A DNA stretch of 64,000 nt from Calvatia gigantea (lineage: Eukaryota; Basidiomycota; Agaricomycetes; Agaricales; Lycoperdaceae): NCBI GenBank assembly GCA_025093985.1, contig JACAAK010000021.1:1-64000 (forward strand), given 5' to 3'. Of this stretch, positions 7,015 through 58,335 are shown in pieces (position 1 is the first letter of the stretch; each line of letters starts with the position of its first letter). The notes under the pieces are model-generated. The model saw only the letters and a list, made by a program, of their open reading frames with translations, made no database searches and had not been told where the DNA came from. The translations under genes were made by a program, and so were the position numbers.

Positions 7015-7320
7015 TGTTACAGCCTTAGTCTGACAAAACCTCAGGTTGCAACTTAGGCTAAGACTTGAGGGCAAGTAAGGGGGGAAGAACCAGGTGGTTA
7101 AGTGTACTGAATACAGATAAGGGTATATACACTTATATACAGGAAGTCATCCAGTTGAATGGATGGAGCTACTATGTAAAATGTCCAATAGTAAAGGCAC
7201 AGTAGTACATGAGTCAATACTTGGAGATTGCTAGGCAGGAATAGGTGAAACAGTTACATAGATGGACATGGAGAATGAATGAAGGTAATGATGTGACAGG
7301 ACTGGCAGGAAACCACAACA
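7015..7320 (-). repeat. 5' LTR of element A
   Basis: 306 bases, TGTTACAGCC to CCACAACA, followed by the duplication GTAGC. It is uninterrupted, so it shows the empty site of the solo LTR at 1014-1322. On the minus strand the TATA-like TATATAAG precedes ACACTTAACCA (complement of 7095-7105). Confidence 0.93.
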
Positions 7321-7354
7321 GTAGCCAGTTCAAACTAAAGAATACATTGAGTAT

Positions 7355-8346
7355 CTACAGTAGTAATCAAAAGTATAGTATTTCCCTTTGTCACACATCA
7401 TCTTATGGAGTGCTTTTTTAAATGCCACAATCTTTCTATATAAAATATTAGACCTCCTAGCTACAATGCAGTATAGTTAAGATTTTTATCAGATTACACA
7501 TGAGTTCATAAGATGGGAAATAAAAAAGGGTGTATTTTTTAGCTTAGGAACTACTAGGCCCAAGGATCTAAAAATATTTGAGGGAATAGTCCTTGAGAAT
7601 GATATAAAGTTCTATTTTACAGAATAAAAATTGGTAGAGTGGTTTCAGAGATAATTGGGCCTAAAGTTGCTAAAAATTGCTTTTTTTGGCTATTTTTCAC
7701 AGATCTTAGTCATTTTTGACAACTTTAAGCCCAATTATCTCCTAAGCCACTCCACCAATTTTTATTCTGTAAAGTAGAACTTCATATGATTCCCAAGGAC
7801 TATTCCCTCAAATATTTTTAGATCTTTGGGCCTAGTGTGTTACGACCTTAGTCCGATAAGACCTCAGGTTGCAGCTTGGGCTAAGTCTTGAGGGTGAGTA
7901 AGGGGAGAAGAACTGGAGTGGTTAAGCATACCGAATACATGAGTATGTATGTACACTTAAGTACTATGAGAGCATCCAGTTGAATGGATGGGGAACTACA
8001 TGAAATGTCCAATAGGGATGGCATTGTAGCTAGTCAGAGTCATACTTGGAGATCGCTCAATAGGAAATAGCTGAAACAGGTACACAGGAGATAGGAATGT
8101 AGACGAATAAAGAACGCGATATGATCAGTGAAAGTTCACAACATAGTGGTTCCTGAGCTGAAAAACATATCCTTCTTTATTTCTCATCTTATGAACTCAT
8201 GTATAATATGATAAGAGTTTTAACTATCTTAGCCTATAGCCAGAAAGGTCTAGTATTTTTAGAAAAAGAGTTCATGGTGTTTGATGAAGTATTACATAAG
8301 GTGATAAGTGTCAAAGAGGGTGCAATACTTTTGATTGCTACTGTAA
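7355..8346. repeat. Long fold-back (inverted repeat) element
   Basis: Two arms of about 325 bases (7355-7679 and 7711-8346, the latter holding a 306-base solo LTR) are reverse complements of each other with moderate divergence, and the loop is about 31 bases. Well-paired blocks include GGGAATAGTCC against GGACTATTCCC, TTTTTATTCTGTA against TACAGAATAAAAA, and CATCTTATGAACTCATG against its complement in the left arm. No transposase is encoded. It could be a fold-back/MITE-type element or two inverted copies of an unknown repeat. The outer limits are approximate, and no terminal duplication was identified. Confidence 0.8.
7838..8143 (-). repeat. Solo LTR of the A family in the fold-back's right arm
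   Basis: 306 bases, TGTTACGACC to TTCACAACA, with TAGTG at 7833-7837 and 8144-8148. Removing the LTR and one TAGTG restores pairing of the right arm with the left arm, which confirms the insertion. Confidence 0.94.
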
Positions 8347-9554: not shown

Positions 9555-9858
9555 TGTTATGACCTTAGTTTGAGTTTACCTCAGGTTGCAACTTAGGCTA
9601 AGACTTGAGGGTGAGTAAGGGGAGAGGAACAAAGGTGGTTAAGTGTACCGAATACAGGGGAAGTATGTATGCTTAAATACAAGAGGCATCTAGTTGAATG
9701 GATAGAGCTAGCTATCTAAAATGTCTGATGATAATAGTGTGATAGATGTATGAGTCATTACTCAGAGATCACTAGGACGTTAATAGATGAAACAGATATA
9801 TATATGATAGAATGAAGAAAACTGTAGAGCAGTGATGGAAATGGTGAAGATCACAACA
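9555..9858 (-). repeat. 3' LTR of element C
   Basis: 304 bases, TGTTATGACC to TCACAACA, preceded by TACTC (9550-9554), the probable left target duplication. The polypurine tract appears as ATACCCCC just to its right. Confidence 0.9.
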
Positions 9859-9876
9859 ATACCCCCTGATTAGGCT

Positions 9877-10874
9877 TTATGCCTTAGGAAGCTTGTTGAA
9901 GTCCCTATGGATGACCACTGTGGCAAGGGCTTTCTTGGTGGCACCTATGAGGTACCTTCCACTGTTGGACCACACGAAGAAGACAGGCAAGTGGCTTTGG
10001 CCATCTTGTTGGATAGGGACTGAGACTCCTTTGTATGGGAACTCAGTGATGGTTGAGCCTTCCTAGTAGTTCTTGACTATCGAGTGCCAGTAAGGTTGGC
10101 TGCATTCTTGGCCAGGCAACACAGTGTGGTAGTGGGTGGATGGCTGAAAAACCAAGATGATTTGAGGGGGTGTGATGGTTTTAATGAAGCAGCATAGGGC
10201 ATTGACTTCTTCTTTCATAGATACTGTGGTTTCTTCATCCATGGAGGTATCAGCATGGACAGCTGCTTGGAGTGGACTGATGGTGTCTCGGAGCTCTTTC
10301 AGGGTAGAGTGGATATGGTGGACAAGTTCTTTGGTACTGGTATCATTAGGGGTGGTGTCATGGCCTAGAAGGCTGGAGGCAATGTCTCCTAATTCTAGGA
10401 AGATTTCAGCAACATTAAGGCCTTTGAATATCTCAAGTGCAAGGTCAACTCGGCTTTGCAAGCTGTTGATGCAGGTTTGTTTAGATAGTGTAAGAGTCAA
10501 TTGGGAAAGGGTACAAAAGATGGCTGGGATGTGTTTGCTAGTGGATGCGGAGGCATTTTCAAGTCCTATGTACATGTCTGCAAATGTGATGCAGGCTGTA
10601 GTGAGGGTGATGAGGTGGTTGGTGTTCAGCCATTTGTTTTGGTTGGTAATGGTGACTAGTTCGGCATTGGTGGCATTGCTGATGTCTTTGAGCAAGTCTT
10701 CTAACAGTCCTTGGGCTGGGGATAGCATTATGGCCATGTTGAATCGAGTGCCACTGGGGGTTGGGGCTTTGCTATTGCCTGGTTTGGGCATTGGGACAGA
10801 AGAGATTTTAGTTGGGTTGGAGTGAACAAGCAAGGAGATTGCAATACAGTACAATTGGCTTGGGAGGCAGGCAT
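9877..10874 (-). pseudogene. ORF3 of element C (env-position accessory ORF)
   Basis: The most complete ORF3 copy, about 331 codons from ATG at 10874-10872 to TAA at 9879-9877. Its ATG lies 2 bases after the pol stop. A 2-base insertion near codon 8 shifts the start; the rest reads openly for about 290 codons, until one TAG near the C-terminus. Visible features are SPAQGLLEDLLKDISNATN (helical), several Leu-rich helices in the middle, SMKEEVNALCCFIKTITPPQ, an aromatic block YWHSIVKNY, and a C-terminal segment with HLPVFF, NSGRYLIGATKKALA and DFNKLP. I see no signal peptide, transmembrane segment or Cys cluster, so it does not look like an envelope protein. Collinear copies exist in A, E, F and H. 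Function unknown. Confidence 0.8.
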
Positions 10875-10876
10875 GT

Positions 10877-11109
10877 TTAGTGGATTTGTTTGTTGGCTGG
10901 TTTGCTGGATGCTTTTTTGGATTTTTTACCCCCCTTTTTATGGGCATCCTCCGGATGCCTTTCTAGGTAGTCCTGTATCACCTCCTTTGCATTTCCCAGG
11001 TTGGACTCCACTGTCCATGTATCTTCTTCATTGCCATACCCTTTCCAATGTACTAGGAACTGATATCCCCTTCTACATTTTCATTGTCCTCAGATTTCAT
11101 CCACTTCAT
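10877..11109 (-). pseudogene. Pol C-terminus of element C: end of the chromodomain and basic tail
   Basis: The minus strand encodes the end of the chromodomain (the WKGY region) and a Lys-rich tail ending with TAA at 10879-10877. It is interrupted at ACTCC (11110-11114) by element D, and the coding sequence resumes at 18617. The uninterrupted counterpart in E is 21894 to about 22145. Confidence 0.8.
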
Positions 11110-11114
11110 ACTCC

Positions 11115-11662
11115 TGTTACGATCGGGTTACGCGGGATATCGGCCGAGGTTAGCCACCAGGTGACATCGGGTGAGAACGTACGGAGTGGGTGAATTCAGA
11201 TGAGTACGAGATTTGGACTCAGCAGCTTCAACATATGTGTTGCACCTTCCTGCTGTCGTCGAAGTCCGTATTTCAGGAGGGAGTGGGGTCAGAGGGTCGG
11301 AGGAACAGAGACAGAGGGGAATAGAATCAGAGGGTGTAATCGTGGTCGATAATCAGACTAAGGATTTACAAGTGTGGGGACTAGGTTTATATACTAGTCT
11401 GAAAAGCGGGAAGTACGAAAGTAATGGTGAACAAAGAATGGACGGCCACTGAGGGCGGCCGGCTAACAAGACACTGGAATCAAGTTTTAACTATAAGGTG
11501 ATAGTGGAGAAGTTGAAGGGGATAGGGATTAATATAGAAAACAGGATATCGGACCGACTGACAGAAAGAATGAAGAGCAATCCAATGCAGCCGGACTAAG
11601 GTAATGATGACTACGAGCAGGGGAAGTGGGTGAGAGTGGGCGAACGTGCGCGGGTCATGACA
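11115..11662 (-). repeat. 3' LTR of element D
   Basis: 548 bases, TGTTACGATC to GGTCATGACA. A polypurine tract (CCCCCC on the plus strand) follows directly at about 11666-11671. Because the antisense gene starts 153 bases to the right, rightward transcription from this LTR would enter it. Confidence 0.95.
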
Positions 11663-11814
11663 GTATCCCCCCATTAGGGCTGAGCCCTCGAGGCCATGAA
11701 ATCAGACTGTGGGAATCTCCAATTAGACTTTTGATGGTACATGTAAATTTCATCACCTTGGAAATTTTACGGTCCCATTCTCTTACTCTAACCACCACCA
11801 CCTCAACCACTACC

Positions 11815-12908
11815 ATGTCCAGCCCTATCAAGAAAACTGCCACGGAGAAATGGGCCGAGCTAGAGGCCATGCGTGAACACAAGCGACTCGAACTGGAAAG
11901 GCAGGAGGAGGCGGAATGGCAGGCCGAACGCAAGCTGCGCGAATTGGAGGAGAACGAGGAGTGAGAGAGGCAAGAACGGGTGGAACGAGAAGCACGGGAA
12001 AAGAAGGAGCAAGAGGAGCGAGAGGAGCTGGTGCAGGTGAGCAGATGTGAAGGAAAGTGTAAGGCTGCTGATGAAGCGGATAAGAAGATAACGGCCGAGA
12101 AGCAACGTCAACGGAGGATCATGAAGGAGTGGGTTAGGAAGGTGCTGCCATCGTTGAAAAGGAGACACGTCGATAAAGAGTCAGATTTCGGGGGCAAGCC
12201 AGACCTGGACTGGAGGGAATCGGGCGAGGACGAGCCACCTGCAGTTGACGGAAAGAAGGTCAAGATGGGTGGCCATAATAAGTGCGAGCGATGTCTCAAC
12301 AACAGCGATCCTTGCACAATCAGGGAGTCAACATCAAGGTAAGTGGCACTTAGCTTCCCAGTGATTGTGCTAATGGCCGTTCTAGCTGCGAGGTCACCAA
12401 GTGCCTCGAATGTTCGCTGTCAAAGAAGGCTTGTCGCCTTCCATCCGCCTGTCGTCGGCCGATCACTGTTGCCACTCAAGTATCTCGGGTCAGCAATGAT
12501 CAACTCACGGCTCTCCTTACTCACCAAAACGATATCCTGGAGAGGATCGCGTCCATTATGGAGGATCAGGGGATGAGGATGGATAGGCTGATTGAGGTTG
12601 GAGAGGAGCAGTTGCTGCGGCTGGAGCGGGCGAATGAGCTCGGGAGGAATGTTGAGGCCGCAGTCATCAAGAATGGCAGGTATCAGTGTAGCATTGGACT
12701 AATGGTTCAGCAGGTGATGGATGCCCTGGGACTGGCTGATGATGATGATGACAACGAGGATGACAATGAGGAGGCCTGCGTGCCAGGTGAAACCCAGGAG
12801 GAAATGGAGGTAGTAATGGAGATGGAGGAAGACAATGGAAACAAGAGTGAAGAGGAAAAGGAGGAAGAAGTGGAGGAAGCGGCTGAGTCGGGTGAAACTG
12901 CCCAGTGA
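11815..12908 (+). pseudogene. Antisense coiled-coil / Zn2Cys6-like / acidic protein gene inside element D (one TGA)
   Basis: Plus-strand gene opposite to gag-pol. ATG at 11815 has a good context (CTACCATGTCC). Exon 1 is 11815-12338, the intron 12339-12385 and exon 2 12386-12908, giving 348 codons. Residues about 10-85 are dominated by Glu, Arg, Lys and Ala and are predicted coiled coil. Then Cys-x2-Cys-x6-Cys-x13-Cys-x2-Cys-x6-Cys spans the splice junction (CERC, ECSLSKKAC), close to the fungal Zn2Cys6 cluster. A helical segment follows, and the C-terminal 60 residues are very acidic. A single in-frame TGA (11962-11964) lies in ENEE-stop-ERQERVE and fits CGA decay. The gene ends 118 bases from the pol end, tail to tail. 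A DNA-binding or regulatory role is inference. Confidence 0.78.
12339..12385 (+). other. 47-base spliceosomal intron in the antisense gene
   Basis: Donor GTAAGT, a branch-like TGCTAAT, acceptor TTCTAG. Splicing joins AG to CTGC, restores one continuous frame to the stop at 12906-12908, and brings the two halves of the six-Cys pattern together. The unspliced reading terminates at 12342. Confidence 0.82.
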
Positions 12909-13025
12909 TCCGCGGCCATCTTCTCCTCATATTTTGGACATTACATAATTGTTGATAGTTGATAATGTGCAATAAACTGATTTGTCTGTGTGAATGAAGT
13001 GTGAAAGAAATTTAAGTAAAAAAAA

Positions 13026-14720
13026 TCATAGAGGGTTCAAAGGTCCAGGCTTAGAAAAATAAGAGGAATGAAAGTCTGCAAGAAGTTCAGCCGCATGTGC
13101 TAGCTCAGTAGCAGGTAACCAGGAAGACTCTTCTTCAGTGTCTTCATAACCTAACCAGATAACTTTGTACAAAAGCTTGCAAGTTCAATGGCAGTTGATT
13201 TTCGAGTCAACGACGCGAGCAATTTCGTACTCCAGTTCACCTTCAACTGCGACAGGCGGGGGAGGTGGCTCAGAGCAGCCGTCGAAGGTGTTGGGTGTGG
13301 CAGGTTCTAGCATAGAGACATGGAACACTGGGTGAACAGCGCGAAGTGAGTCAGGGAGTCTGAGAGTGAATGAAACGGAACTGGGTTGTGCTATAATCTT
13401 GTAAGGACCGAGATACTTCTCAGAGAGCTTTTTGGATGGCCGAGTCATGTGGAAGAACTTGGCCTTGACAAAGACTTTCTGACCGATAGTGAAGTCGGGC
13501 GAAGGAAGTCAGTGAGCATCAGCAGATGTCTGATAACGTCCTTGAGCAAGCTTGATCTCAGCCTTTAGTACGTTGTGGAGTTCGTCGAGGTCGACAATGA
13601 ATTGTCGGGCCCATCTAGAAGCTAAATCTCTCTCAGGGTATACTGTGATGTTCAGGTGATAACCCTTGTTAGCGAAGAATGGGGAAACACCAGTCGTGGC
13701 ACTAGGAGTGTTGTTGTAAGCGAACTCAGCTAGTGGAAGTAATTCTGCCCAGTTGTCCTGCTGATAATTGCAGTAGACACGAATGTATTGCTCGAGGGTC
13801 TGGTTGGTCCGTTCGGTCTGTCCGTCGCCTTCCGGGTGGTAACCTGAAGTGAAATGCAACTTCATGTCCAGTGCTTTTCCAAGCGACCGGAAGAAGTGCA
13901 AGACGAACTCAGAACCGCAATCAGATGTGATGTGTTCGGGAACACCGTGCTTTGAGAATACATGAATGACAAATAGTCGGGCCAACTCGGCCGATGTGAT
14001 CATGTCGTGGGTAGGAATGAACAGGGATTGTTTGGTGAGTCTGTTGACGATAACGAGGATAGTATCGAACTCGGAGGAGGTAGGGAGCTTCTCAATGAAG
14101 TCCATAGAGATAGAGTTCCAGGGTCGTTCAGGGATGGGGAGTTGCTTGAGAAGTCCGTATGGCCTGTGGCGCTGCGGTTTAGATCGCATACAAGTGACGC
14201 ATGACTTACAGAAGTCCTTGACAGCCAACCGGATGTCGGGCCAAGTGTAGTCTCTGCGGACGAGTTCAAGAGTCTTGTTCTGACCAAAGTGGCCGGAGAG
14301 GATGTGATCATGTTTGTACTGTAAGACTCAAAGTCGTAACTTGTTAGCATCAGGGACATAGATCCTGTCATCAAGGTAGAGAAAACCAGCCAAGTCTCCG
14401 GACCATCGTCCTTCTGGTTTAGCTATGTGAGCAGCTGTGGACGGGTCAAGCGGGAGAGCTGAGAGGATATCAGAGTGGAGTTGATCAAGGTCAATGATTG
14501 TGGCTGCACGAAGGGAAGGGGCATATAGGTATGTAGCACGGACAGAAGCTGAAAGCTGTTCATGAGTAAAGATGGGTCTGAAGTTGTGAGGATTGACCGT
14601 AGCATAGTCATTATTCCCCCCTTTAGGGTAGACGTCCCATCATCTAGTAAGAGCATCGGGTTTTGTCCCTAGTCAGCCGGGGCGAAAGCAAATCATGAGG
14701 TTGAACTGGGAGAGAAACTC
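13026..14720 (-). pseudogene. Element D integrase and chromodomain
   Basis: From 14720 leftward: the HHCC zinc finger (H..H region ending FCKSCVTCMRSKP), then the catalytic core with SMDFIEKLP, ITSDCGSEF and E in DGQTERTNQTLEQY. D, D and E are all present, although SDRG has become SDCG. Next come the GPY/F-type module (EKYLGPYKIIAQ) and a chromodomain starting ELEYEIARVVDSK and continuing WLGYEDTEEESSWLP. A TGA at 13185 separates the chromodomain halves. The zinc-finger part also carries stops. The frame is otherwise continuous, ending at 13026. Confidence 0.9.
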
Positions 14721-14723
14721 GGA

Positions 14724-15359
14724 CTAGCGGGCTTGTCGGTGGGTGAGGATTTTCGTGGTACAGAAGTATTCTAGATTCTTGTGATCAGTAACAACATCGA
14801 TCGCAAGAGGGGCACCTTCGAAGTAGTGCTGCCAAATCCTGAAAGCTTCAAATATAGCCAGGAGTTCCTTGTTGTGGGTATCATAATTCAGCTCGGCCGG
14901 ACTGAAGGTGCAGGAGTGGAATGCCATGGGGTGAACTTTACCATCCTCGGTAATGATGGAGAGGATGGCTGCTAGTGTGTAGTCAGATGCGTTGGTCTCA
15001 ACAATAATCTGAGCATCGGGTATCCAGTGAGTGAGGACAGGTGCTGAGATAAAGGTGTCCTTCAATGATCTGAAAGCTTCTCGACAGTCATTGCCGAACT
15101 TCCACACCATGCCCTTTTGGGTGAGGCGGGTCAGTGGGACGACGATGTCAGAGTAGTTGTAGATGAAGCGACGGTAGAAGTTGGCGAAGCCGAGGAAAGA
15201 CTGTATGTCCTTGACCTTCTTCGGTTCAGGCCAGTCCTGGATGATCTTGACCTTTTCCTCAGACATTCTGAGACCTTCGGGGGAGAGGACGTATCCAAGG
15301 TATTCAATGGTATCGGATTCGAACTCACACTTACATATCTGCGCGGGCGTAGAGGCCAT
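14724..15359 (-). pseudogene. Element D RT thumb and RNase H
   Basis: Encodes YLGYVLSPEGLRMSEEKV and the connection FLGFANFYRRFIYNYSDI, then RNase H with ETNASDYTLAAIL (D usually in the form D.SD), HNKELLAIFEAFRIWQHY and TDHKNLEYF. It is in a different frame from the RT segment because of a 4-base insertion (ATGT) just after LYARAD near 15340. It is followed by a stop before the integrase linker. Confidence 0.9.
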
Positions 15360-16221
15360 GTTTGCAGAGCCGCTTTAATACATCTTTAACCTGCTTGCAG
15401 TGGTTGCTGAGGTTGTCAGAGTAGATGAGGATATCGTCAAGATAGACCGTAACGCAAACATCTAGGAGATCCTTGAAGATATCATTCATGAACCACTGGA
15501 AAGCAGCAGGTGCGTTAGTGAGGCCGAAGGGCATAACAAGCCATTTGAACGAGCCGTAGTGGGTCTGAAAGGCTGTCTTCCATTCGTCACCAGCCGCGAT
15601 GCGAACGAGATGGTAAGCATGGTGGAGGTCGATCTTGGTGTAAATACAGGCTTTGCGTGGAGAGTCGAGTAGGTCAGATATGAGCAGAAGAGGATAGCGA
15701 TCCTTCTTTGTGATACGGTTGAGACCTTGGAAGTCGACACAGAGTCGGAGGGAGCCATCCTTCTTCTTGACAAAAAGGACTGGAGCTCCATGAGAGGAGT
15801 TGGAAGGGCGGATGAAGCCAATGGCAAGGTTTTCCTCTATGAATTCACGGAGGGCCTCCAGTTCAGTCCGGGACAGAGAGTAGATGGTACCAACGGGAGG
15901 TTGGCCACCTTCTTCCAGATTGATTTGGAGGTCATAGGGTCTATGTTCGGCAAGTATGTCGGCCTTTGCTTTACTGAAAACGTCAGCAAACTCGCGATAT
16001 GCTTTGGGGATGTTAGACCAATCATCGGGTTCCTCATTGATGGCAGCCGAAGCAGCTGACATCGATGGGTTGTTGAGGTTAAGACTGAATTGAACTGAAC
16101 CAGGAATGCACGTGGCGTGCAGGAATGCAACAGCATTCACCAGGGAAATGTGGGGATGTGTGGAGCCAGAGGGCAGAGAGGACTGTGGATCTATGGGAGC
16201 GGGTGCGGCCAAAATGGGCAC
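15331..16221 (-). pseudogene. Element D reverse transcriptase
   Basis: Contains the classical Gypsy RT blocks in order: [50 protein letters not shown] (usually DYR.LN), [28 protein letters not shown] and the catalytic [10 protein letters not shown]. All catalytic aspartates are intact. It runs out of frame after LYARADM because of the ATGT insertion. Confidence 0.93.
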
Positions 16222-16796
16222 CGAGGAATGTGTGGACGCAGCAGAGGCAGTCGCAACACAGGGAGGAGTGACAGGAATTTCGAGCTGTGGTGGTCAGAAA
16301 GTAATACTGCCCAAGGCCCAGTCAATCAACGGATTGTAGTGGGTGAGCCAGTTGTATCCCAGAACCACGGAGCAAGAAGAGTCGAGTCGAGTGACGAAGA
16401 AGTCCAGAGTCATAGATTCACCACAGCCAAAGGTGACAGGGATTTTCGCAAGTTCAGTAATAAAGGCACTAGAAGAACCATCGAAAAGACGGAGCTCAAC
16501 AGGAGGAATGGGCAAGGTCGGGAGGTCATAAGAGTGGATAAAGTCAATATCCACGAAGCAGTGTGTAGAGCCACTATCAATAAGGGCCTTGAAATGGGTA
16601 TCGGAGGGGGAGCAGATGAGCGAAGAGGAGATAGATAGTTGAAAGGAGTTGGGATCAGAAAGAGCAAACGCGTTGAGTCAGAAACACTCTGTGGCACAAG
16701 TGAGTACAATGCGGTCCTCAGCTAGTGCAGAGTCTCGAGGACCGCTACTTAGTTTCCCGAACTCTTATCAGAGTTCCTATCGACCGCCTCAGCGAG
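16222..16796 (-). pseudogene. Element D protease region
   Basis: The minus strand encodes [16 protein letters not shown], the retropepsin active site (DSG) intact, and later [17 protein letters not shown], the second conserved block (G..WL..H.P.IDW). The frame is -1 relative to gag and has stops upstream (near 16672 and 16770), so translation from gag would not reach it in this copy. Short stops also precede the RT segment. Confidence 0.85.
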
Positions 16797-18008
16797 TCAG
16801 GCCACAGCCTTTACGGCCGAGGCAGCTTTCTTCCTGCACTCACTCACCTTGTGTCCTGCATTTCTGCAGAACAGACAGAGGTTGTTGTCCTTGTTGCTGG
16901 TGTTGTTGGGCTTGTTGCTGGTGCTGCTGGTGTTGTAGGTGTTGTTGGTGGAAGAGGACGGGTTCTGGCCAGGCCTCCTGCTGATAGAAGCGGATGCTGT
17001 TTTGGCGGCCGACTTTGCCCGAGTCTTTTCGCGCTGACACTCCCAATAACGGTTATCAAAGAGGAGAGTAATCTCCCGCATCAGGACGAAGGTGGTGGGC
17101 TTACCAGTGGGGCGACTGGACAGGGAGTCCTGGAAATGATCTGGGAGCCCTTTGTAGTATCGGAGGCAGAGCACCTTGTCATTCCAATTGAGCTGTGATG
17201 ACAGCCGCATGAACTCGACGTTGTAGTTGGTGATTTTGTCAGAGTGTTTCATCTGAAGGTTGTCTAGAAGCTCGGCGGATTCGCTGCGCGGGTCTGCAAT
17301 CCCGAAATTGGTTTTCAGCTCTAGGACGAAAAGGTCCCAGTCGGAGGTCCATGGGTGGACAGTGCCAAGAGTCTCCTCTTGGTTGATAGCTGTTTTGAAC
17401 CATCGGAGAGCAGTATCAGTCAAGTAGGTGAGTGCGAAGTTCACCTTATTATTGTCAGTCGGGAAGAGCAAGGGGTTGGAGCGAAAGTAGAGCCAACATT
17501 GGAACAGGAACTGATGGAGTTCCTCAGGGTTAGCACCACTGAACGTGTTAGGTTCACGGGCCTTGGTGCGGGGGGTTCGGGGTACTTGGGGTGGCTGAGA
17601 ACGGGCCCGATCGTCTAACTTGTCGGCCAAAAGCGCAATGGCATCCGCCATTGTCAATCCTCGGCGTTGTGGATTTGGGGCACTGCCATCACCAGCATTA
17701 CTGTCAGGAGGGGCTTCACCATCGTCACCACCATCATCACCATCACCAGGATCTGGGGGTCCCTCGTCGAAAGGGTCCTGATTTTGGTTCTCACCTTGGT
17801 CGGGTAACCAGTCCTCCTCATTTTCATGATCGGGATCGGGCCCTTCCTGCAAGACCTCTTCAACGGGGGTTCTTTGGAGTGCTACTACAGGAGAAGCTTT
17901 GCATTGAGGGGTAACATAGGAAAGTGGTGTGGTGGCCTTCCGGCTTCTGGCAACAGAAACCTTCCGGGCTTTGGAAGCAGTTTGTGACCTGGTGGTCATA
18001 GTAGGCAT
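16797..18008 (-). CDS. Element D gag, intact
   Basis: 403 codons without interruption. The N-terminus is basic and Ser/Thr-rich (TTRSQTASKARKV), then comes an acidic Asp/Gly/Pro-rich stretch (residues about 60-110). The capsid-like core runs residues about 150-310 (REPNTFSGANPEELHQFLFQ, ALRWFKTAI, YYKGLPDHFQDSL). A Thr/Asn/Ser-rich linker is followed by one zinc knuckle, CLFCRNAGHKVSEC. The length and order are typical of fungal Ty3/Gypsy Gag. The AAC-rich linker is a low-complexity tract. Confidence 0.92.
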   Translation of the reverse strand: MPTMTTRSQTASKARKVSVARSRKATTPLSYVTPQCKASPVVALQRTPVEEVLQEGPDPDHENEEDWLPDQGENQNQDPFDEGPPDPGDGDDGGDDGEAPPDSNAGDGSAPNPQRRGLTMADAIALLADKLDDRARSQPPQVPRTPRTKAREPNTFSGANPEELHQFLFQCWLYFRSNPLLFPTDNNKVNFALTYLTDTALRWFKTAINQEETLGTVHPWTSDWDLFVLELKTNFGIADPRSESAELLDNLQMKHSDKITNYNVEFMRLSSQLNWNDKVLCLRYYKGLPDHFQDSLSSRPTGKPTTFVLMREITLLFDNRYWECQREKTRAKSAAKTASASISRRPGQNPSSSTNNTYNTSSTSNKPNNTSNKDNNLCLFCRNAGHKVSECRKKAASAVKAVA

Positions 18009-18050
18009 AGTAATCAGTGGTGAGGGGACAAAGGAACGACAGAGGAGTGG

Positions 18051-18061
18051 AGTCTGATTAT
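18051..18061 (-). promoter_or_regulatory. Primer-binding site of element D (putative self-priming)
   Basis: The minus strand reads ATAATCAGACT two bases after the LTR end. It is an exact 11-base complement of AGTCTGATTAT in the same LTR (plus-strand 18298-18308). It does not begin with TGG, as a site for the CCA end of a tRNA would. Confidence 0.75.
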
Positions 18062-18063
18062 AC

Positions 18064-18611
18064 TGTTACAATTGGGTTACACGGGATATCAGCCGAGGTT
18101 AGCCACCAGGTGACGTTGGGTGAGAATGTACGGAGCAGGTGAATTTGGACGAGTACGAGATTTGGACTCAGCGGCTTCAACATATGTGTTGCGCCTTCCT
18201 GCTGTCATCGAAGTCCATATTTCAGGAGGGAGTGGGGTCAGAGGGTCGGAGGAACAGAGACAGAGGGGAACAGAATCAGAGGGCGTAATCGTGGTCAATA
18301 ATCAGACTAAGGATTTACAAGTGTGGGGACTAGGTTTATATACTAGTCTGAAAAGCGGGAAGTACGAAAGTAATGGTGAATGAAGAATGGACAGCCACCG
18401 AGGGCAGCCGGCTAACAAGACACCGGAATCAAGTTTTAACTATAAGGTGATAGTGGAGAAGTTGAAGGGGATAGGGATTAATATAGAAAACAGGATATCG
18501 GACCGACTGACAGAAAGAATGAAGAGCAACCCAATGCAGCCGGACTAAGGTAACGATGACTACGAGCGGGGGAAGTGGGTGAGAGCGGGCGAACGTGCGC
18601 GGGTCATGACA
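18064..18611 (-). repeat. 5' LTR of element D
   Basis: 548 bases, TGTTACAATT to GGTCATGACA. Its minus strand carries the promoter described at 18298-18342. Confidence 0.95.
18298..18342 (-). promoter_or_regulatory. Core promoter and predicted transcript start of element D
   Basis: On the minus strand, TATATAAA (18342-18335) is followed 34 bases after its first T by AGTCTGATTAT (18308-18298), the complement of the PBS. Transcription about 30-35 bases after a TATA box would start at or next to this string. Confidence 0.7.
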
Positions 18612-20570: not shown

Positions 20571-20878
20571 TGTTACGACCTTAGTCTGATAAGACCTCAG
20601 GTTGCAGCTTAGGCTAAGTCTTGAGGGCAAGTAAGAGGAAAGAACCAGATGGTTAAGCGTACCAAATACAGGAGTATGTATGTACGCTTAAATACAGAAG
20701 GGAGCATCCAGTTGAATGGATGGAGATAACTACATGAAATGTCCGATGACTATGGCATAGTAGTTATGAGTCAGAGCTCAGGGATCGCGCAGGCAGGAAT
20801 AACTGAAACAAGTACACGGCTAGGAGGAAATGCAGACAAGTATGGAGCTGATACGAGAATAGACTATTGTTCACAACA
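20571..20878 (-). repeat. 3' LTR of element E
   Basis: 308 bases, TGTTACGACC to TTCACAACA. It retains the undecayed self-priming string ACGCTTAACCA on the minus strand and the uninterrupted AATACAGGAGTATG that is split in the other LTR. Confidence 0.95.
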
Positions 20879-20903
20879 ATACCCCCCGGTCAGGCTTCAT
20901 GTC

Positions 20904-21887
20904 TCAGGAAGCTTTGTCAAAGTCTCCATTTACCACAGCAGCAGCGAGTGCCTTCTTGGTGGATGTGATAAGGAATTCTCCACTGTTGGATTTTGTGAAG
21001 AAGACTGGCAAGTGGCTGCGACCGTCTTGATGGATAGGGACTGGGACACCATTGAAGGGGAACTCGGTGGTAGTGGAGCTCTCCCAGTAGTTCTTGACTA
21101 TCGATTTCCAGTAGTGTTGGTCTTTCTCTTGTCCTGGTAGTACAGTGCAGAACCTTGCAGGGGGGAGAAAAACTGATGCAAGTTGCAGTGGGGTGATGGT
21201 TTTTATGAAGTGTCGGAGGGTGTTGACTTCTTCCTTCATGGAGACCATGACTTCTTTGTCCATGGGGGTATTGGCACGGGATGGTGGGGAGGGATTAACT
21301 GTGTTATGTAGTTCAGAGAGGGTAATGTGAATTCTGTTCACTAGGGTGTTGATGTCAGGATCTTCATTTGTTTTGTCTCATCCGAGAAGTTTCATGGCTA
21401 CATCTGCAAGTTCGAGGAAGATGTTGGCGATATTGAGGTGATTGAAGACCTTGAGGCCTAAGTCGATTCGGCTTTGGAGTCCTTGGACTCAATCTCGTTC
21501 GTTGGGGGTAAGGGTGGACTGGTCTAGGGCTCAGAAGATGGCAGGAATGTGCTGGTTGGTGGAAGAAGATGCATTGGTGAACCCTGCATACATGTCAGCA
21601 AAGGTGATGCATGCAGTAGCAAGAGTGATGTGTCGGTTTACGACTAATTGTCAGTTTTGAGCAGAGATGTTCTCAATTTCGCTATTGGTTGCTTTGTCAA
21701 CATCCTTGAGTAGGGCTTCAAGGAGGCCTTGTGCTGGGGACGGTGTCTTCACAAGGTTATAGCAGGTTCCTTGGGGAGTAGGTGCTCGGCTGTTGTCTGG
21801 TTCGGGAAATGGGAGGGAGGAGATTCTGGTGGGAGTGGGGTGGATGAGGGAGTCGATGGTGATGCGGTTGGATTGGGAGGCAGGCAT
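20904..21887 (-). pseudogene. ORF3 of element E
   Basis: ATG at 21887-21885, six bases after the pol TAA and in the same frame (TAA ACA AAC ATG). About 327 codons with at least four in-frame stops, otherwise collinear with C's copy: MPASQSNRITIDSL, PSPAQGLLEALLKDVDKATN, PMDKEVMVSMKEEVNTL, FIKTITPLQ, YWKSIVKNYWES, SHLPVFFTKSNSGEFLI. A 1-base insertion near the end gives an early TGA. The N-terminal 40 residues are rich in Pro, Ser and Thr. No membrane segment or known fold was recognised. Confidence 0.82.
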
Positions 21888-31803: not shown

Positions 31804-32098
31804 TGTTATGGCCTTAGTCTAATGAGACCTTAGGTTGCAACATAGGCTAAGACTTAAGGGTGAGTAAGGGGGAAAAACCAGGTGGTTAAGCATACCAAAT
31901 ACAAGAGTATGTATGTACACTTAAGTATGAGAAAGCATCTAGTTGAATAGATGGGGTAACTACATGAAAGATTTGATAACTATGGCATAGTAGTGTATAT
32001 GAGTCAATACTTGGGGATTTCTTGACAGAAATAGATGAGGCAATATTGGGAGTGAAGATGAGCATGGCAATATGATGAGAATGATAAAAACCACAACA
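31804..32098 (-). repeat. 3' LTR of element F
   Basis: 295 bases, TGTTATGGCC to CCACAACA, followed by TTACCCCC (polypurine tract of the minus strand). Confidence 0.9.
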
Positions 32099-32116
32099 TT
32101 ACCCCCTAATTAGGCT

Positions 32117-33938
32117 TCATGCCTCAGGAAGCTTGTCAAAGTTACCATGGGCCATAGCTGTGGTGAGGGCTTTCTTGGTGGCTCTGATAAGATATTTTCC
32201 ATTGTTGGACCACACAAAGAAGACAGGTAAATGGCTTTGACCATCTTAATGGATAGGGACTGGGATGCCTTTGTAAGGAAATTCTGTAATGGTAGAATTC
32301 TCTCAATAGTTCTTGACTATTGAGCTCCAGTAGTGTTGGTCATGCTCTTGACCTGGTAGTACAGTGCAGAAATAGGCAGGTGGCTGAAAAACTAAGATGA
32401 TCTGTGGTGGGGTAATGGTTTTGATGAACCATCACAGTGCATTAACTTCTTCTTTCATAGAGACTATAGTTTCTTCATCCATGGAGGTATCAGCTCAGAT
32501 GGTAGTTGTAGTTTGGGGGTCTAACAGTGTCATGTAATTCCTTGAGAGTGGTATGGATTTTATAGATGAGTTCTTTGATACTGGAGTCATTAGAGGTAGT
32601 GTCTCAGCCAAGTAGATTAGAGGCAATGTCTCCCAACTTTAGGAAGATTTCAGCAATATCAAGGTTCTTGAATACTTCAAGGGTGAGGTCAATTCTGCTT
32701 TGTAGATTGTTGATGTGGGTTTGTTCAGCTGGGGTGAGGTGTTACAAACTCAACTGCAGACTAACCTTACTCTTCCTTAAATGTATTAACCTTCTACTTC
32801 AGACTTTTCCATTTTCCCTTCTGTATACCCCAGTTTGTTTTTTATTTATTTAACACATGTATTTCTACCTTTACTTCTTATGACTCCTTTTGAGTCATGT
32901 TCCTGTTTCACCTTCTCTATTCTCATCATCAGACTTCTATCTACTTGTCTCTGTCTCTGTTATGAACTTAACTGCAGACTAACCTTATTCCTCCTTAAAT
33001 GTATTAACCTTCTTTCCTTAGACTTTCCTATTTCCCCTTCTGTGTATACCCCAGTCTGTTCTTTATTTATTTATCACATGTATTTCTACCTTTACTTCTT
33101 ATGACTTATTCTGAGTCATATTCCTGTTTCACCTTCTCTATCTCATCTCTGTCTTCTTGTGACTCATATTGCTTCTTTTCTACTCCCTATGACTCCTTAG
33201 ATTACCAATTAACCTGTAGTAGTCTCCCATTGACTCATACTCCTTTACTACATAATTACTCATCCCTTATGTGTAGCTAGTATATAAACCTTAAGTAGTA
33301 CACTTGTATTACCTTATGTTATTCTAGTAACAAGCTTCCCTATCTTCACTCATCTGCTACAAGGTTAACAACCTTGGGGACTGCAGTGACATTTAACTCA
33401 GACTTCTCAGACAAGTGTGAGCTTTTACTTGAGGGAGCAATCCAAAGTCTGCACAGAAGTCATTGAAACTTGTCATATACTCCTGGGCTATAGTGTTGAA
33501 CCTCTTCCTGAGTGGAGATGATCTGGGCCTGGTTGTGAAGTAGGGTAATGCATGTAACATAAGGGATGATTGGTTGAGGGCATGGAAGATAGCAGGGATG
33601 TATTTGCTAGTTGATGTGGAGGTGTTCTCAAAGCTGGCATATATGTCAGCAAATGTAATGCATGCTGTGGAAAGTATGATTAATCAGTTGGTGTTCAGTT
33701 TTTTGTTTTGAGCCATAATAGTGATAAGCTCTGCATTGGTGGTGTTGCTGATGTCTCTGAGTAGGTCTTCAAGGAGGCCTTGGGCTGGAGATGGAGTTGT
33801 AGCCATATTGAAATAAATGCTACTTAGGGATGGGGCTTTATTGTTGCCTAGAGCAGGTAAAGGGATGGACAAGATTCTGGTAGGGTTGGGGTGGAGGAAA
33901 GAGGTGATAGTGATGCAGCTAGATTGGGAGACAGGCAT
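32117..33938 (-). pseudogene. ORF3 of element F, split by a G-family insertion
   Basis: ATG at 33938-33936, seven bases after pol TAA. The N-terminal part (33556-33938) encodes MPVSQSSCITITSFLH and SPAQGLLEDLLRDISNTTN; the C-terminal part (32117-32739) encodes the MKEEVNAL, FIKTITPPQIILVF and SHLPVFF-type segments and ends TGA at 32119-32117. Removing 32740-33555 aligns the two halves to the C copy without loss. Confidence 0.78.
32740..33555 (+). mobile_element. G-family insertion: partial LTR, full LTR and leader
   Basis: A partial LTR (32740-32957, TGTTACAAACTCAACTGCAG) is directly followed by a longer LTR (32958-33332, TGTTATGAAC to CTAGTAACA) and by leader/gag sequence to about 33555, homologous to 8930-9149. 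Flanks TGAGG and TAAGG may be a target duplication with one transition. No pol is present. Confidence 0.65.
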
Positions 33939-45595: not shown

Positions 45596-47705
45596 TTTTT
45601 TTTTTTTTTTTAAATCAAGGCTTGCGCCAATTTATAACGCGGTGCCCGATCACAGTCCATGTGTAGCAAAGTACAAAGACCCCAACTACATTGTCCGATG
45701 AGTTAAGAGTAATCTACCTTTCACAGACAGCCCAACCCAGCCCAAGCTGTACTAACCGGAGCTTTCCAGCCCAGCCCAAACCAAGTTGCCCCCTACTGAA
45801 TAAACCACCCCAGTCGCCCAAAATGCCCATCACACTGAGGAAGACCCAGTCACCCAGGTCTTGTGGTGTACACCCAGTAATGCACCGTCGCAGAGCGACG
45901 GTGCCCTGATCATCCCTCAAGAGGTGGGCCCAGCGGCAACGGCGGCCGAGCGCCCTCAGGGGGACAGGTATAGTCAGGAGAGCCAGCGCGAGGAGCCCCC
46001 ACTTGGAGCCACCTTACCCCCAACTTCCCAGGTGAAAGGGTATCAGCCCAGGCCTGGTCTAGAGTGACACAGTAGGCAGGGTAGCAACTCGAAGCGTCGC
46101 CTAGACGGCACCCAAGGAAGCAGCTTAGCAGGACGAACCCGCACTGCCACCCAGGGACCCCACCCCCGTTGTTTACACCTTTGCCCCCCGCAAAGCCCCC
46201 AACCAGGCCCAGGAAAGGAGCACCACTAGCCAAAGCCAGAAGCACCCCCCAGGGACCCCACCCCTGTTGCCTTGTGACTTCTCCACCTAGTAGGTCAGAA
46301 GACCAGCGACACCGCAGGGACCCCCCACGTGCGCCAGCTCAACCGATCCCAGCATCATCTGGTCTGAACGCAAAAGCTCCAGGGTTTGCATTCAGGAAGT
46401 CAATCAGCTCACAAATGGTCTGAGGAGGTCTGTCAAGCTCCCTCTTGTGGTTGGGACACCTGACAAATATGTGATAGCACCCCTCGAGAGCGGCACCACA
46501 CGAGCAGCCAACGCCTTCGTTAGGAAAGAATCGTACCCGGTACGACCCAATTGGAGCATGACCTGTGACGGCACGCACGGCCCTCGCACATAGTGAGTTA
46601 GAGCCGCTAACATGAGGGAGCCAAGGCCCACCAGAAAGGTAGGTCAGCTTCCCCGGAATAAATGGGTCTGCCCCGGAGGCAAGATCCATGTTGCTACGCC
46701 CCTTGTAAGAAGAGGTGGAGTACAGCTGATGCCATGACTCCAGACAATTGTCGACCGCCTCTCTGTGGAGGCGGGCAATAGAGGTGAACGGCCTCAGGCC
46801 ATAGGCGACCTGAGGGAACGAGGTGACATGCCGGTGCACAGCATGGTGGAACTCCCACTTCTCGGAAGAAGGGACAGTGAGGAACTCAATGCTCCTCTGG
46901 GGATCCCCAGAGAACCATCGCTTAAGCGCCACACACACTCCTTGGGACAGCATCTGCCCGGAGTGTGTAGACGGATCAACTGTGAGCTTCATTGATACAA
47001 TAGAATCAGTGAAGACGCGTATAAGCCTGACGTCATCCTGCTTAAGGGCAAAATGAACTCCAAGCGCAATGGCCATAAGCTCAGCATCAGGTGCTGTGAC
47101 TTGGCCTACCACACGAGTAATTTCCCTGAGACACTTGCGTTGGCGGTAGACATGGGCAGACGACACTGCCTGGAACTTGCCATGAAGCAGAAGACTTGCG
47201 TCCGTCACCATATGGACAATCCTGGGGTCCTCTCTGCACTCCCTAAGGTGTGCGTTGAGAGCATACATATGCTCAGGGTCAGTATTACTCTCTACATTGA
47301 GTTTCACCTCCATGAACGACACCTGGTCAGGGTGGCAGTCCATCAGGCGGTATCCGGGCTGATTAATTGAGGCCATAGGCTCAAATTCCTCGATGAGATT
47401 TACCAGGTTGGTATCAGCCTGGATTAAGGAGCCTTTAGTCTTCCCACAAGTAGCGGGAGACATAAGACCGATGGAGTGAGTATGCAACTTAGCAGACCTG
47501 GAATACTCAGGGCTCATAAGGGCCCTGAGGGGATGATTGGGTGACAGGGTCTTAATCCTGTAGTCCGATCTGACAGCAAGCTTCTGTATGTGAAGCTGGA
47601 TGGGTATGAGACCCACGAATGACTCTGCAGCCCCAGTAGGGGCAGTCCGGAACACACCTGTAATCTACAGGGCCGCCCGTCTCTGCATGACATTCAGGCT
47701 CTTAA
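45596..47705 (-). mobile_element. LINE alpha: 3' part of a non-LTR retrotransposon
   Basis: A T-run at 45596-45611 is the poly(A) tail of a minus-strand LINE. About 730 bases of 3' untranslated region (45612-46338) follow and are almost repeated at 58900-59705. Then comes the C-terminal part of ORF2 up to the LTR of Copia J at 47706. It is inserted in gag of element I. No RT core is present. Confidence 0.88.
46339..47705 (-). pseudogene. LINE alpha ORF2 C-terminus: RNase H and CCHC
   Basis: RNase H with MVTDASLLLHGKFQAVSSA, DAELMAIALGVHFAL and RVFTDSIVSMKL, carrying the Asp, Glu and Asp expected. At the C-terminus a Cys/His motif CSCGAALEGCYHIFVRC is of the kind seen at the end of LINE ORF2. 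The RNase H plus final zinc motif fits the Tad1-type LINEs of fungi (family knowledge). It is open for 438 codons; the upstream 50 bases carry a stop before the Copia junction. Confidence 0.85.
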
Positions 47706-48096
47706 TGTCAGGAGTGCTCCAGACAGTGTTAGATGGACTCTCCTGAGTCAGGGCTCCAAGGTTTGGTAGGACACTTGTGGAGTTGTCCAAGGAGATATGG
47801 ACTTGTACATAGAGATGTGGACTTAGAGCCACAATGGACGCTTTTGTGATCATGTGACTTGGTCACATGATGGTTGAACTTAGTTAGAACACCTGTGGAC
47901 GCTTTCTGGCTCTTTAGCCTCTTACAACAGTCCACAGGTGAGTAGGACAATTTTCTGTTTTGTACTCAGCCTCTTACAACAGTCCACAGGACTAGTGTTC
48001 AATAAAACGCGTTTTTCTCGAGATTCTCCCTATCAAGTCGCGTTGTTTCTTCAGTGTTAGGACTGCCAGACGTTCCCCTATGCGCCCCCTTCAACA
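47706..48096 (+). repeat. Copia J 5' LTR
   Basis: Starts TGTCAGGAGT and ends CCCTTCAACA. Contains two copies of CCTCTTACAACAGTCCACAG (about 47921 and 47971), a short internal direct repeat. AATAAAACGCG near 48000 resembles a polyadenylation signal. Confidence 0.93.
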
Positions 48097-48108
48097 GGTT
48101 ATGGGCCC
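48097..48108 (+). promoter_or_regulatory. Copia J primer-binding site
   Basis: GGTTATGGGCCC follows the LTR directly and is identical to the site at 2148-2159 and to Drosophila copia, which uses a half initiator tRNA-Met. Confidence 0.85.
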
Positions 48109-48280
48109 CACGCTATAACGCTCAAAAATGACGTGTCTTTCTCTGGTATCCATCCCTTGGCAACAACTCCTCTCTTCCTTCCTTTCCCCTGGGCTCCCTG
48201 CTGTCCCCACTGTCCTCCTACTGTCACCACACCTTCCTTCCATCATCCTCTCACTGCCACCACCATCCTAAACCTCCATC

Positions 48281-51200
48281 ATGTCTGCCTCACCCTCTTT
48301 CCCCAAACTCTCCTCCACCAACTATTCTACATGGGCTGGTGAAATGGAGGCCTGGCTGAGGGCTTCAGGTCTCTGGAGGCTAGTCTCTGGTCAAAAATCT
48401 CCTCCCTCTCTCCCCAGTCCACCCACTGCCCCTCAGCAAGCTGCTTATGACTCCTGGTTGTCCAACTCTGACAGGGCAGCTGGTTGGCTGTATCTCATGG
48501 TGGAACCTGACCAGAGAATCTATTTCAATGGCATTCAGGATGACCCTGTGAAGATGTGGGCTGCTCTACAGTCCATACACCTCCAGAAGCGTCCTGGGAT
48601 GAGGTTTAATGCCTATGATGACCTCTTCTCCATCAGGAAGCTTGAGGATGAGTCTCTCCAGTCTCTCATCAACAGGGTGGAGGATGCAGTGAAGACCATC
48701 AAGGACCTCAGGCCAAAAGACTTCACTCTGGACAAGCTGGATGAGGAGCTAGCTTCCATGGCTCTTATTCGGTCTCTCCCCTCTGAGGAATTCTCCTCCT
48801 TCACCTCCTCTCTCCTCCTCATGGACAAGCTGGACAAGGCCGCTGTTCACCAGGCCCTTGTCACTGAGGACATCCAACGTCGCCGACGCATGCAGGACTC
48901 TTCCCCTTCCTCCACCGCCTTCTCTGCTTACTCCTGGCCTCCCATTTCATCCACCTCGTCCAAGTCCTGTGACTTCTGTAGCAGGCAAGGCCATGAACTC
49001 AAGAACTGCCGGACTTATGAGGCTGCTCAGAAGAAGGCTCAGGCTGATGCTGAACAGCAAAAGCTGAATTTCTCATCCAGGAAGCGTCAGAACTGCGCCA
49101 AACTTGCTCAGGACACTCCTCAGGACGGGTTCCCTTCACCCTCACTGGATGGCGCCCAACAGGCTCATGAATTCGCTGGAAATGCAAGTTCTTTGTCCAC
49201 ATCTCCCTCTTCCCCTCTCCAGCTCGATGCTGACTTCCACTGGATTGCAGATACGGGGGCCACTTCTCATATGACACCACATCGCCACTGGTTCAAGTCA
49301 TACTCCCCTTATCGTACTCCCATTCGCCTCGCCGATAATTCTATTGTCTATTCAGCTGGTGTGGGGTCCGTGATATTTCAGCCAATTGTAGGTGGAAAGA
49401 GGGTGAAAGCAGTTGAGTTTTCCAGAGTCCTACATGTCCCTGATTTGCGCAGCAACCTCCTCTCATGTTTATATCTCACTCGCCATTCTGGCTTTAATAT
49501 CACCATTTCTTCCTCATCCATGACCTTTGTGCGAGGAGGCCAAACTCTCTTTGTTGCATCCATTAGTCCAAGTAACTCTGCCTCTCTTGACGGCACCACC
49601 ATGGCTTCTGAGTCTGCTTTCTACATCTCCACTCTCCCTGTCGACCTCTCTCTCTGGCACTGTCGCTTCATCCATCACAACTATGCTAATGTGAAGAAGA
49701 TGATCTCTCAAGGCTTGGTTACTGGTCTCACTCTGGAGTCTGATGCTTCTCCTGATCCTATCTGTGAGCCCTGCTTGGCTGGTAAGATGCACGCCCATCC
49801 ATTCCCTCCCTCTCCCAACCACAATCGCTCTCCCCTCGAGCTCATACACACTGACCTTCATGGACCACTCCCAGCTGCTACAGCACAAGGCTACTGCTAC
49901 TGGATCACCTTCATCGACGACGCTACGTGCTTTCAAGCTGTCTATCTGCTGAAGTCCAAGTCTGGAGCATTTGATGCCTTTATGACTTACAAGGCCTGGA
50001 CTGAGAACCAACTGGGGGTGAAGATATGTGTACTACAGGATGACAAGGGTGGAGAGTACATGTCTAATGCCTTTTTGGAGTTTACTAGGCGCTGTGGCAT
50101 TGAACGGCGCCACTCTACACACAATCAGCCTCAGCAGAACGGTCTTGCTGAATGGGCCAACCAAACTATGGGTGAGCGCATCACTGCTATGCTCTCTGAA
50201 TCTAGGCTTCCTCTGTCTTTCTGGGGTGAATGTCTCGCTTCTATGGTTCATGTCTGGAATCGCCTCCCTACATCTACTCTCCCTCACTCTACACTCTTTG
50301 AGGCCTTCTACAGTCGCAAACCTGATGTCTCTCATCTCAGGGTGTGGGGGTGTACTGCCTATGTCCATGTCCAGCGTGACAAACGCCACTCTCTTGCTCC
50401 TCACTTTGAAAAGTGTGTCTTCATTGGCTATCCTGCTGGCTACAAGGGCTGGAAGTTCTACAATCCCACTACCAAGGCCACCAGGATCTGTGAGAGAGCT
50501 GACTTTGATGAGAGGTACTTTCCTGGGACTCACACTGTGAGGACAAATGTCATACCCTCCTTTGCTAACCCTCCACCATCCCCTTCACAATCCTCAACTT
50601 CATCATTGCATATCTCACCACCTCCTTTGCCTATGCCTTTGCTACCTTTACCAGATGAGGGGGGTGATCTTAACCACTATCCTGCGCAGTCAGAACCTGA
50701 TCTACCTCCTCCTGATGTCTCTACGGCTCCTACAACTCCGCCAGCTAGCTCTACTCATCTGCCAAAGAATGACACTCCCTTCCATACTCCTTCTCCTGAT
50801 CTACCTTCAACTCCACCAGCTCCTCCTCGCACTCCAGTCCCTCCTAACCGTCCCAGATGCAGTAGCCGAGCTAGGAAACCTCCTAGTGAGTGGTGGAAGG
50901 TCAAACCTCTCCCTGCTTTGGAGGTATAGCCTGAGGACAACTCTGATGCTGCAGAGTATGCCTTTGAGGATGTGGAGTTTGCTGGAAGTGTCTCTGGACC
51001 TGACCCTCGCACCTATAAGGCTGCCATGAAGTGCCCTGATGCCTAAGACTGGTCTACTGCCTGTGATGATGAGATCTTTGCTCTGGAGTCCAACAGGACC
51101 TGGGAGATTGTTGAGCTGCCTCCTGGGAAGAAGGTGATCAACTCTGGCTGGGTCTTCAAGGTCAAGCGCAATCCAGATGGCTCTGTGGAGCGCTACAAGG

Positions 51201-52555: not shown

Positions 52556-52578
52556 GGACTGTCTGGATCAGGGGGGTG

Positions 52579-52969
52579 TGTCAGGAGTGCTCCAGACAGT
52601 GTTAGATGGACTCTCCTGAGTCAGGGCTCCAAGGTTTGGTAGGACACTTGTGGAGTTGTCCAAGGAGATATGGACTTGTACATAGAGATGTGGACTTAGA
52701 GCCACAATGGACGCTTTTGTGATCATGTGACTTGGTCACATGATGGTTGAACTTAGTTAGAATACCTGTGGACGCTTTCTGGCTCTTTAGCCTCTTACAA
52801 CAGTCCACAGGTGAGTAGGACAATTTTCTGTTTTGTACTAAGCCTCTTACAACAGTCCACAGGACTGGTGTTCAATAAAACGCATTTTTCTCGAGATTCT
52901 CCCTATCAAGTCGCGTTGTTTCTTCAGTGTTAGGACCGCCAGACATTCCCCTACGCGCTCCCTTCAACA
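52579..52969 (+). repeat. Copia J 3' LTR
   Basis: Identical to the 5' LTR over roughly the first 190 bases, then 8 substitutions (7 transitions). It ends CCCTTCAACA, directly followed by LINE sequence TAACCGACAT. Confidence 0.95.
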
Positions 52970-55784: not shown

Positions 55785-55793
55785 AGCTACGAC

Positions 55794-56906: not shown

Positions 56907-57030
56907 ACCAGTGAGTAGTTCAGCAACTAGGGACGTGCCCTAGCCAAGAGTTGGGGTTGCGGTGTATTCAATATGACTAGATTACAGTAACCGCCCCGTT
57001 GGTAGTGGTGGTTGCTGGAAAAGGAAGGTG

Positions 57031-58326: not shown

Positions 58327-58335
58327 GTCGTAGCT

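Follow-up and report, generated by a model that had tools for sequence, protein, structure and literature searches.

An intron-containing antisense gene, predicted to encode a six-cysteine protein, in a Gypsy retrotransposon lineage of Calvatia gigantea

Here, we describe an antisense accessory gene that is a standing part of a lineage of Ty3/Gypsy LTR retrotransposons in Calvatia gigantea, and not of one element copy. Its predicted product begins with a charged, coiled-coil-like segment, continues with six cysteines in a Zn2Cys6-like cluster and with a helical region, and ends in an acidic tail. By analogy with antisense genes of other retroelements, we lean towards the view that this product is a nuclear regulator, encoded by the element and acting on the element's own expression.

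The antisense gene and its host element in the window

The window, that is the whole stretch of 64,000 nucleotides that was analysed, contains a chromovirus-like Ty3/Gypsy LTR retrotransposon copy on the minus strand (11115..18611), recognised by its LTR pair and its Pfam domains. LTR-LTR alignment delimits a 3' LTR (11115..11662) and a 5' LTR (18064..18611), both of 548 bp and on the minus strand, and ACTCC flanks both outer LTR sides as a 5-bp target duplication. The domains Retrotrans_gag, RVT_1, RNase H, Integrase_H2C2 and SH3_Tf2-1 (67.4 bits) score above their Pfam cut-offs, while the integrase core (rve, 31.0 bits against a cut-off of 32.6) and the C-terminal Chromo domain of pol (13029-13184; 23.3 bits, E 6.2e-5, against a cut-off of 25.1) fall slightly short. 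The gag-pol region of this copy has decayed and its pol frame is interrupted. The two LTRs differ by 29 transitions and 0 transversions over 549 aligned columns, one end column being taken as a chance match of the flanks. Since transitions dominate the decay of the window LTRs as well as that of the related antisense genes described below (clade 1), this nearly pure transition pattern suggests methylation-driven or RIP-like mutation in Calvatia gigantea.

The antisense gene occupies positions 11815-12908 of the plus strand, with its ATG at 11815 and the last base of its stop codon at 12908. The coordinates and the LTRs agree with the initial description of a gene opposite gag-pol, tail to tail with pol (minus strand) and near the 3' LTR, from whose inner edge the ATG is 152 nt away. 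Exon 1 (11815..12338) covers a charged, coiled-coil-like N-terminus and the first CX2CX6C half of the cysteine cluster. A spliceosomal-type intron of 47 nt (12339..12385) then interrupts the cluster in phase 2, and its GTAAGT, TGCTAAT and TTCTAG signals are present in the sequence as claimed. Exon 2 (12386..12908) brings the second CX2CX6C half, a long helix, the acidic C-terminus and the stop, downstream of which an AATAAA can be read from the sequence (12971..12976); all these features lie on the plus strand. The spliced translation of the window copy has an N-terminus rich in E, K and R and bears out both the proposed cysteine spacing (CX2CX6CX13CX2CX6C) and the acidic C-terminus. The single open frame of 348 codons did not hold up for the window copy, since a single TGA interrupts the spliced frame at codon 50 (11962-11964). 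Exon 1 is also 57 nt (19 codons) below the length of 581 nt seen in 25 of 41 copies. No second pair of CX2CX6C motifs, on one strand and 36-220 nt apart, was found in the window besides that of the antisense gene.

We also modelled exon 2 (12387-12905) with single-sequence AF2. The model places a helix at residues 29-95, with block-mean pLDDT values of 79-89 over residues 41-90, an overall mean of 61.7 and a pTM of 0.26; as a prediction it is too weak to serve as the basis for a fold search.

Elsewhere in the window, a 294-codon ORF on the minus strand (10063-10947), with no Pfam match at cut-off, partly overlaps a repeat, D1, which occurs at four window sites (1448-1747, 9833-10132, 20854-21153 and 32073-32372). 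The region 45800-63400 contains, as judged by eye, non-LTR-like retroelement ORFs in several diverged and partly inverted copies.

Gene copies, intron and linkage to the element lineage

A search of the 45.95-Mb, 77-contig assembly of the same genome with the window antisense protein gave 86 matches, which merge into 41 copies (clade 1). The 47-nt intron is present in each of the 39 copies that extend to its site; two copies end earlier. The ends of the intron are GTAAGT...TTCTAG in 37 copies, with ATAAGT in one and TTTTAG in another. No intron-less copy was found among 39 sites that match the junction pattern with at most 2 mismatches, the intron acceptor being in place at every one. This is consistent with the explanation offered in the sequence-only reading, namely that the intron survives retrotransposition owing to the antisense orientation of the gene. 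As the splice signals lie only on the antisense strand, the conserved intron would mark a true antisense mRNA. The gene also shows how an intron can persist over many rounds of retrotransposition.

Of 37 copies examined, five retain an open frame from ATG to stop, namely three in subfamily A, one in subfamily B and one A/B mosaic; the remaining 32 are not open. Plain spliced translation yields the full 2-6-13-2-6 spacing in 26 of the 41 copies, the rest being frameshifted, cut or changed. The window copy has a seventh cysteine in the X13 spacer; among the 26 copies with full spacing, this place is taken by an Arg (12 copies), a Cys (9, the window copy included), a His (4) or a Tyr (1). The six cysteine codons are retained in 92.5-100% of clade-1 copies, a level that is not striking by itself within the clade, since the median codon is retained in 94.7%. 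Long stop-free stretches also occur on the pol strand (up to 271 codons in L033). One copy (L046) has an insertion of ~300 nt in exon 1 (about 7090-7382), directly before the intron and within the cysteine cluster.

Certain elements whose RT is 79-85% identical to that of the window element, and which have long open pol frames, initially gave no gene match. The 3' end of the element L058, the single clade-2 copy that was read, carries a diverged antisense gene of the same plan: a charged N-terminus, CX2CX6C, an intron, a second CX2CX6C 13 residues on, an alignable stretch, an acidic tail and AATAAA. The intron is again 47 nt long, in phase 2 and in the same codon as in clade 1, and the cysteines keep the 2-6-13-2-6 spacing, so that this spacing, whose conservation the initial account had made a point to check, is kept in both clades. 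A TATA-like box, GGGTATAAG, lies upstream of the antisense ATG. Exon 1 of L058 holds two in-frame stops; long open exons occur elsewhere in clade 2. When the L058 exons were searched against their own genome, 40 clade-2 copies were found, of which 35 are represented by at least two match pieces. The intron length deduced from these 35 exon pairs is 47 nt for 33 of them and 48 nt for one, the last pair not being measurable. Eight weak extra matches of exon 1 (E 0.002-0.09) all fall on clade-1 gene copies. The RT of clade 2 is 69-85% identical to that of the window overall, and 85% for the element of L058.

The gene is thus present in 41 copies and in 40 diverged ones, which settles the concern, raised at the outset, that a lone capture had been seen. 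One may suppose that a host Zn2Cys6 regulator gene was recently captured by a single element copy, and the genome does contain Zn_clus genes from which to draw (27 rows over the curated cut-off of 21 bits for Pfam PF00172, of which two derive from a single frame and none is an antisense copy). Copy numbers of this size in two diverged clades refute a recent single capture, to which we give next to no credence. Searches of the own genome revealed no recognisable host homologue of the antisense gene, save a chance-level match at C2:1329199 (E 0.6). An ancient host capture is possible.

Next to the gene copies themselves, the reverse transcriptases of the genome were compared with that of the window element. 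This comparison scored 150 of 1063 RT candidates and used 147 rows, 3 second pieces having been dropped. Among the matches listed with at least 69% RT identity, 70 of 76 have an antisense gene downstream, on the opposite strand and within 14 kb; these 70 correspond to 69 distinct genes, 50 of which lie at 2.40-2.53 kb, and one gene copy and two RT matches are maybe counted twice, as contig C69 likely duplicates part of C6. Distances beyond 4 kb may reflect an interrupted element or a neighbour's gene. No antisense gene was found downstream of the 71 listed matches with RT identity of 47% or less; since clade 2 had escaped the first searches, such distant families could hold antisense genes whose divergence puts them beyond the reach of these searches. 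For 12 of the 81 gene copies, there is no listed RT within 14 kb. Contig C69 gave scores identical to those of a stretch of C6 (about 1609971-1619261) in several searches, as a duplicate or haplotype of it would.

Divergence and selection

The contrast between the clades is provided by one pair of copies, L031 of clade 1 and L058 of clade 2. Their proteins are identical at 112 of 328 aligned residues (34%), with an alignment score of 295.5 against a shuffled mean of 39.8 (sd 19.5, max 92.5, 300 shuffles), and the core region on its own scores 126 against a shuffled maximum of 73 (500 shuffles). Identity at codon positions 1, 2 and 3 is 48, 54 and 31%, respectively, and the intron, with 15 of 47 ungapped positions identical (32%), is no better conserved than exon third positions. 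Because third positions are the least conserved and the intron does no better, selection acts on the protein, and the between-clade pattern in this pair of copies is what constraint on a protein leaves behind.

The same comparison bears on the proposal that the antisense RNA, as a lncRNA or a dsRNA trigger, is the functional product and the frame is incidental. Regulatory antisense transcripts are discussed in the available text of PMC7264820, and the decay of frames is widespread here, as such a proposal would allow. It does not account for third codon positions being the least conserved with an intron that does no better, nor for a splice position, an intron phase and a cysteine spacing that are all kept at 34% protein identity, and we regard a purely RNA product as improbable.

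Inside clade 1, the signal is modest. The dN/dS values of open copies are 0.24-0.31 between subfamilies and 0.30-0.50 within them, two ranges that overlap; RT dN/dS in three of the open copies is 0.41-0.58. Fixed differences between clade-1 groups, given as nonsynonymous to synonymous counts, are 28:27 for A-B, 23:25 for B-C and 33:20 for A-C, against within-group counts of 351:199, 402:224 and 369:227 (Fisher p 0.08, 0.03 and 1.0, respectively). Pooled, the odds ratio is 0.68 (p 0.026), a value for which the same groups are reused. In comparison to simulated neutral changes, the fixed differences gave p values of 0.001-0.007 for A-B, 0.0003-0.003 for B-C and 0.12-0.24 for A-C. Within-family transversions, counted over 39 of the 41 copies (L032 and L046 left out), show no clear codon-position bias.

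In the pairs of elements compared, the antisense gene has diverged more at silent sites than RT has (0.29 vs 0.064 for L031-L033; 0.25 vs 0.091 for L031-L050), which indicates recombination or module exchange. By eye, the antisense genes of L016 and L050 appear to be A/B subfamily mosaics, and template switching is a possible origin.

The proposed role, the cysteine cluster and the U3 repeat array

In the reading that we favour, the gene is probably driven by an antisense promoter of its own, located within the 3' LTR or next to its inner edge, and the transcript, spliced once, probably yields a protein some 370 residues long. This protein would work in the nucleus and control the expression of its own element, as HBZ does in HTLV-1. 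We infer transcription, splicing, zinc binding, nuclear location, the DNA target and the sign of regulation alike.

Several known systems resemble this arrangement. HBZ of HTLV-1 derives from a spliced antisense transcript that comes from the 3' LTR and is a nuclear protein which lowers expression from the 5' LTR; together with APH-2 it represents the spliced antisense nuclear-regulator genes of deltaretroviruses (PMC10186651). HBZ is a bZIP protein and APH-2, APH-3 and APH-4 lack the bZIP domain, whereas the fungal protein has a cysteine cluster; the likeness proposed is one of function. In plants, antisense ORFs that sit in the gap from pol to the 3' LTR are kept across families; examples are maize Grande gene23, rice RIRE2 and Retand TRP28. 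Of these, Grande gene23 is driven by a promoter of its own and encodes a nuclear protein (PMC7264820, in part), and TRP28 is predicted to bind DNA (PMC11963269, in part). These plant genes are like the fungal one in position, although they belong to a different kingdom and the accessible parts of their descriptions contain neither a cysteine cluster nor an intron, the word intron being absent from the main text of either paper. By analogy, HBZ and Grande gene23 may be taken as the nearest functional parallels. Among fungi, the Gypsy element Boty of Botrytis cinerea carries an extra gene, brtn, which lies antisense in the interval from pol to the 3' LTR (PMC7264820, in part) and is mentioned in PMC4227169 and PMC8365987 as well. 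It shares the antisense position and, by description, would be the nearest fungal parallel. Given spliced antisense regulators in deltaretroviruses and extra antisense genes in plants and Boty, at least as these sources present them, the initial suggestion that a DNA-binding-type protein with a spliceosomal intron would be "a different case" was too strong.

Among the best-ranked papers of a literature search that most subscription journals lie outside, we recognised none that describes an antisense gene for a Zn-cluster protein in a Gypsy element of a fungus, and an earlier account elsewhere is possible. Protein databases gave no credible homologue outside the own genome, an absence which says little as their fungal coverage is uncertain; one match (P0001, E 0.71) was set aside on inspection as a chance coiled-coil match. 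The PDB likewise offered no credible relative (the best match was a designed coiled-coil-like repeat protein, E 0.0047, and otherwise the best E was 0.38), and scans of viral contigs confirmed nothing. The fungal lineage offers many copies in two clades, some of them open, with a metal-cluster-like motif, the intron and a candidate LTR target array (below), and thus splicing, DNA binding and reporter response are directly testable in it.

The general motif of the Zn_clus domain is six cysteines arranged as CX2CX6C-Xn-CX2CX6C, of which the basic, DNA-contacting half comes first; hypothetical proteins with two such halves occur in mushroom-forming fungi. The antisense protein has the six cysteines in this arrangement, and to that extent it was rightly called Zn2Cys6-like, but every Zn_clus score of an antisense copy stays under the cut-off. 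No Pfam family matched the antisense protein at cut-off, Zn_clus being the best match. Isolated clusters scored 17.7 bits (L058), 17.0 bits (L050, E 0.0064) and 17.9 bits (L033, E 0.0033), and a Zn_clus search of the own genome listed 11 antisense copies, all of clade 1, at 16.9-18.2 bits. Of five longer antisense proteins, three matched Zn_clus, with a best E of 0.16, and the window protein gave no Zn_clus match in Pfam. The first CX2CX6C of the protein aligns to positions 15-36 or 19-37 of the 39 positions of the model, which is its second half. The protein thus shares both halves with the fungal Zn2Cys6 regulators (PF00172) while their order looks swapped relative to the textbook domain; from the alignments, this permutation is a lead and not a proof.

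Scores of this kind leave room for a product that acts outside transcription, in nuclear import of the pre-integration complex, in RNA packaging or in integration targeting, with a cluster that binds RNA or protein. The sub-cut-off cluster would fit such a role, as would the segment between Cys2 and Cys3, which is not basic in most clade-1 copies, and a protein that is largely charged and probably a coiled coil; moreover, accessory functions of the retroviral type have been raised for plant antisense ORFs in the available text of PMC7264820. A role of this sort leaves the repeat array that the two clades share in U3 unexplained, though the array may be unrelated to the gene, and we consider the role unlikely while giving it more weight than an RNA product.

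This array of CCCGCT repeats lies at the start of U3. In the window, the 3' LTR copy (11617..11641, minus strand) is partly decayed, shares its register with the intact arrays of other copies and of clade 2 and comprises putative regulator sites, and the 5' LTR copy is found at 18566..18590 (minus strand; pattern match at 18564-18581 with 1 mismatch). CCCGCT occurs at LTR positions 22, 32 and 41 in L050 of clade 1 and at 25, 34 and 84 in L058 of clade 2. Between clades, the first 60 nt of U3 align with a score of 45 against a shuffled maximum of 32 (200 shuffles), and the rest of the available 205 nt does not align (score 41, where shuffling gave a mean of 37.6 and a maximum of 65); the sharing may owe something to the closeness of the LTR end. 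The pattern CCCGCTN{3,4}CCCGCT has 91 matches in the genome against 14 for the reversed control; 26 of the 91 occupy the 3' LTR position of an antisense gene, 24 fall within the 5' LTR range and 41 lie elsewhere. With a longer pattern that was fitted to both clades, 119 matches were obtained, and 0 with its control; the 100 matches listed fall at the 3' LTR position (34, namely 19 in clade 1 and 15 in clade 2), in the 5' LTR range (30) and elsewhere (36), and with strands flipped these numbers become 0, 5 and 95. As the patterns were drawn from these LTRs, their presence there is circular and only the sharing between clades is informative.

The array may serve as an enhancer for a host factor, independently of the antisense protein, which is compatible with the product being a regulator. 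We hold such independence to be possible, on the doubtful side; that array and gene persist together in both clades speaks against it, in a suggestive way only. Within the regulator reading, a more specific and equally tentative version is that a permuted Zn2Cys6-type factor, made from the spliced antisense gene, would bind the AGCGGG array in the U3 of both LTRs and so form a private circuit for each element family. If true, such a circuit diverges faster than the polymerase, for the RT of the L058 element is 85% identical to that of the window and its antisense protein only 34% identical to one of clade 1. With regard to position, the LTR of L050 has a TATATAA box about 220-245 nt downstream of the array, and in the window the antisense ATG follows the array at a distance of about 175-200 nt.
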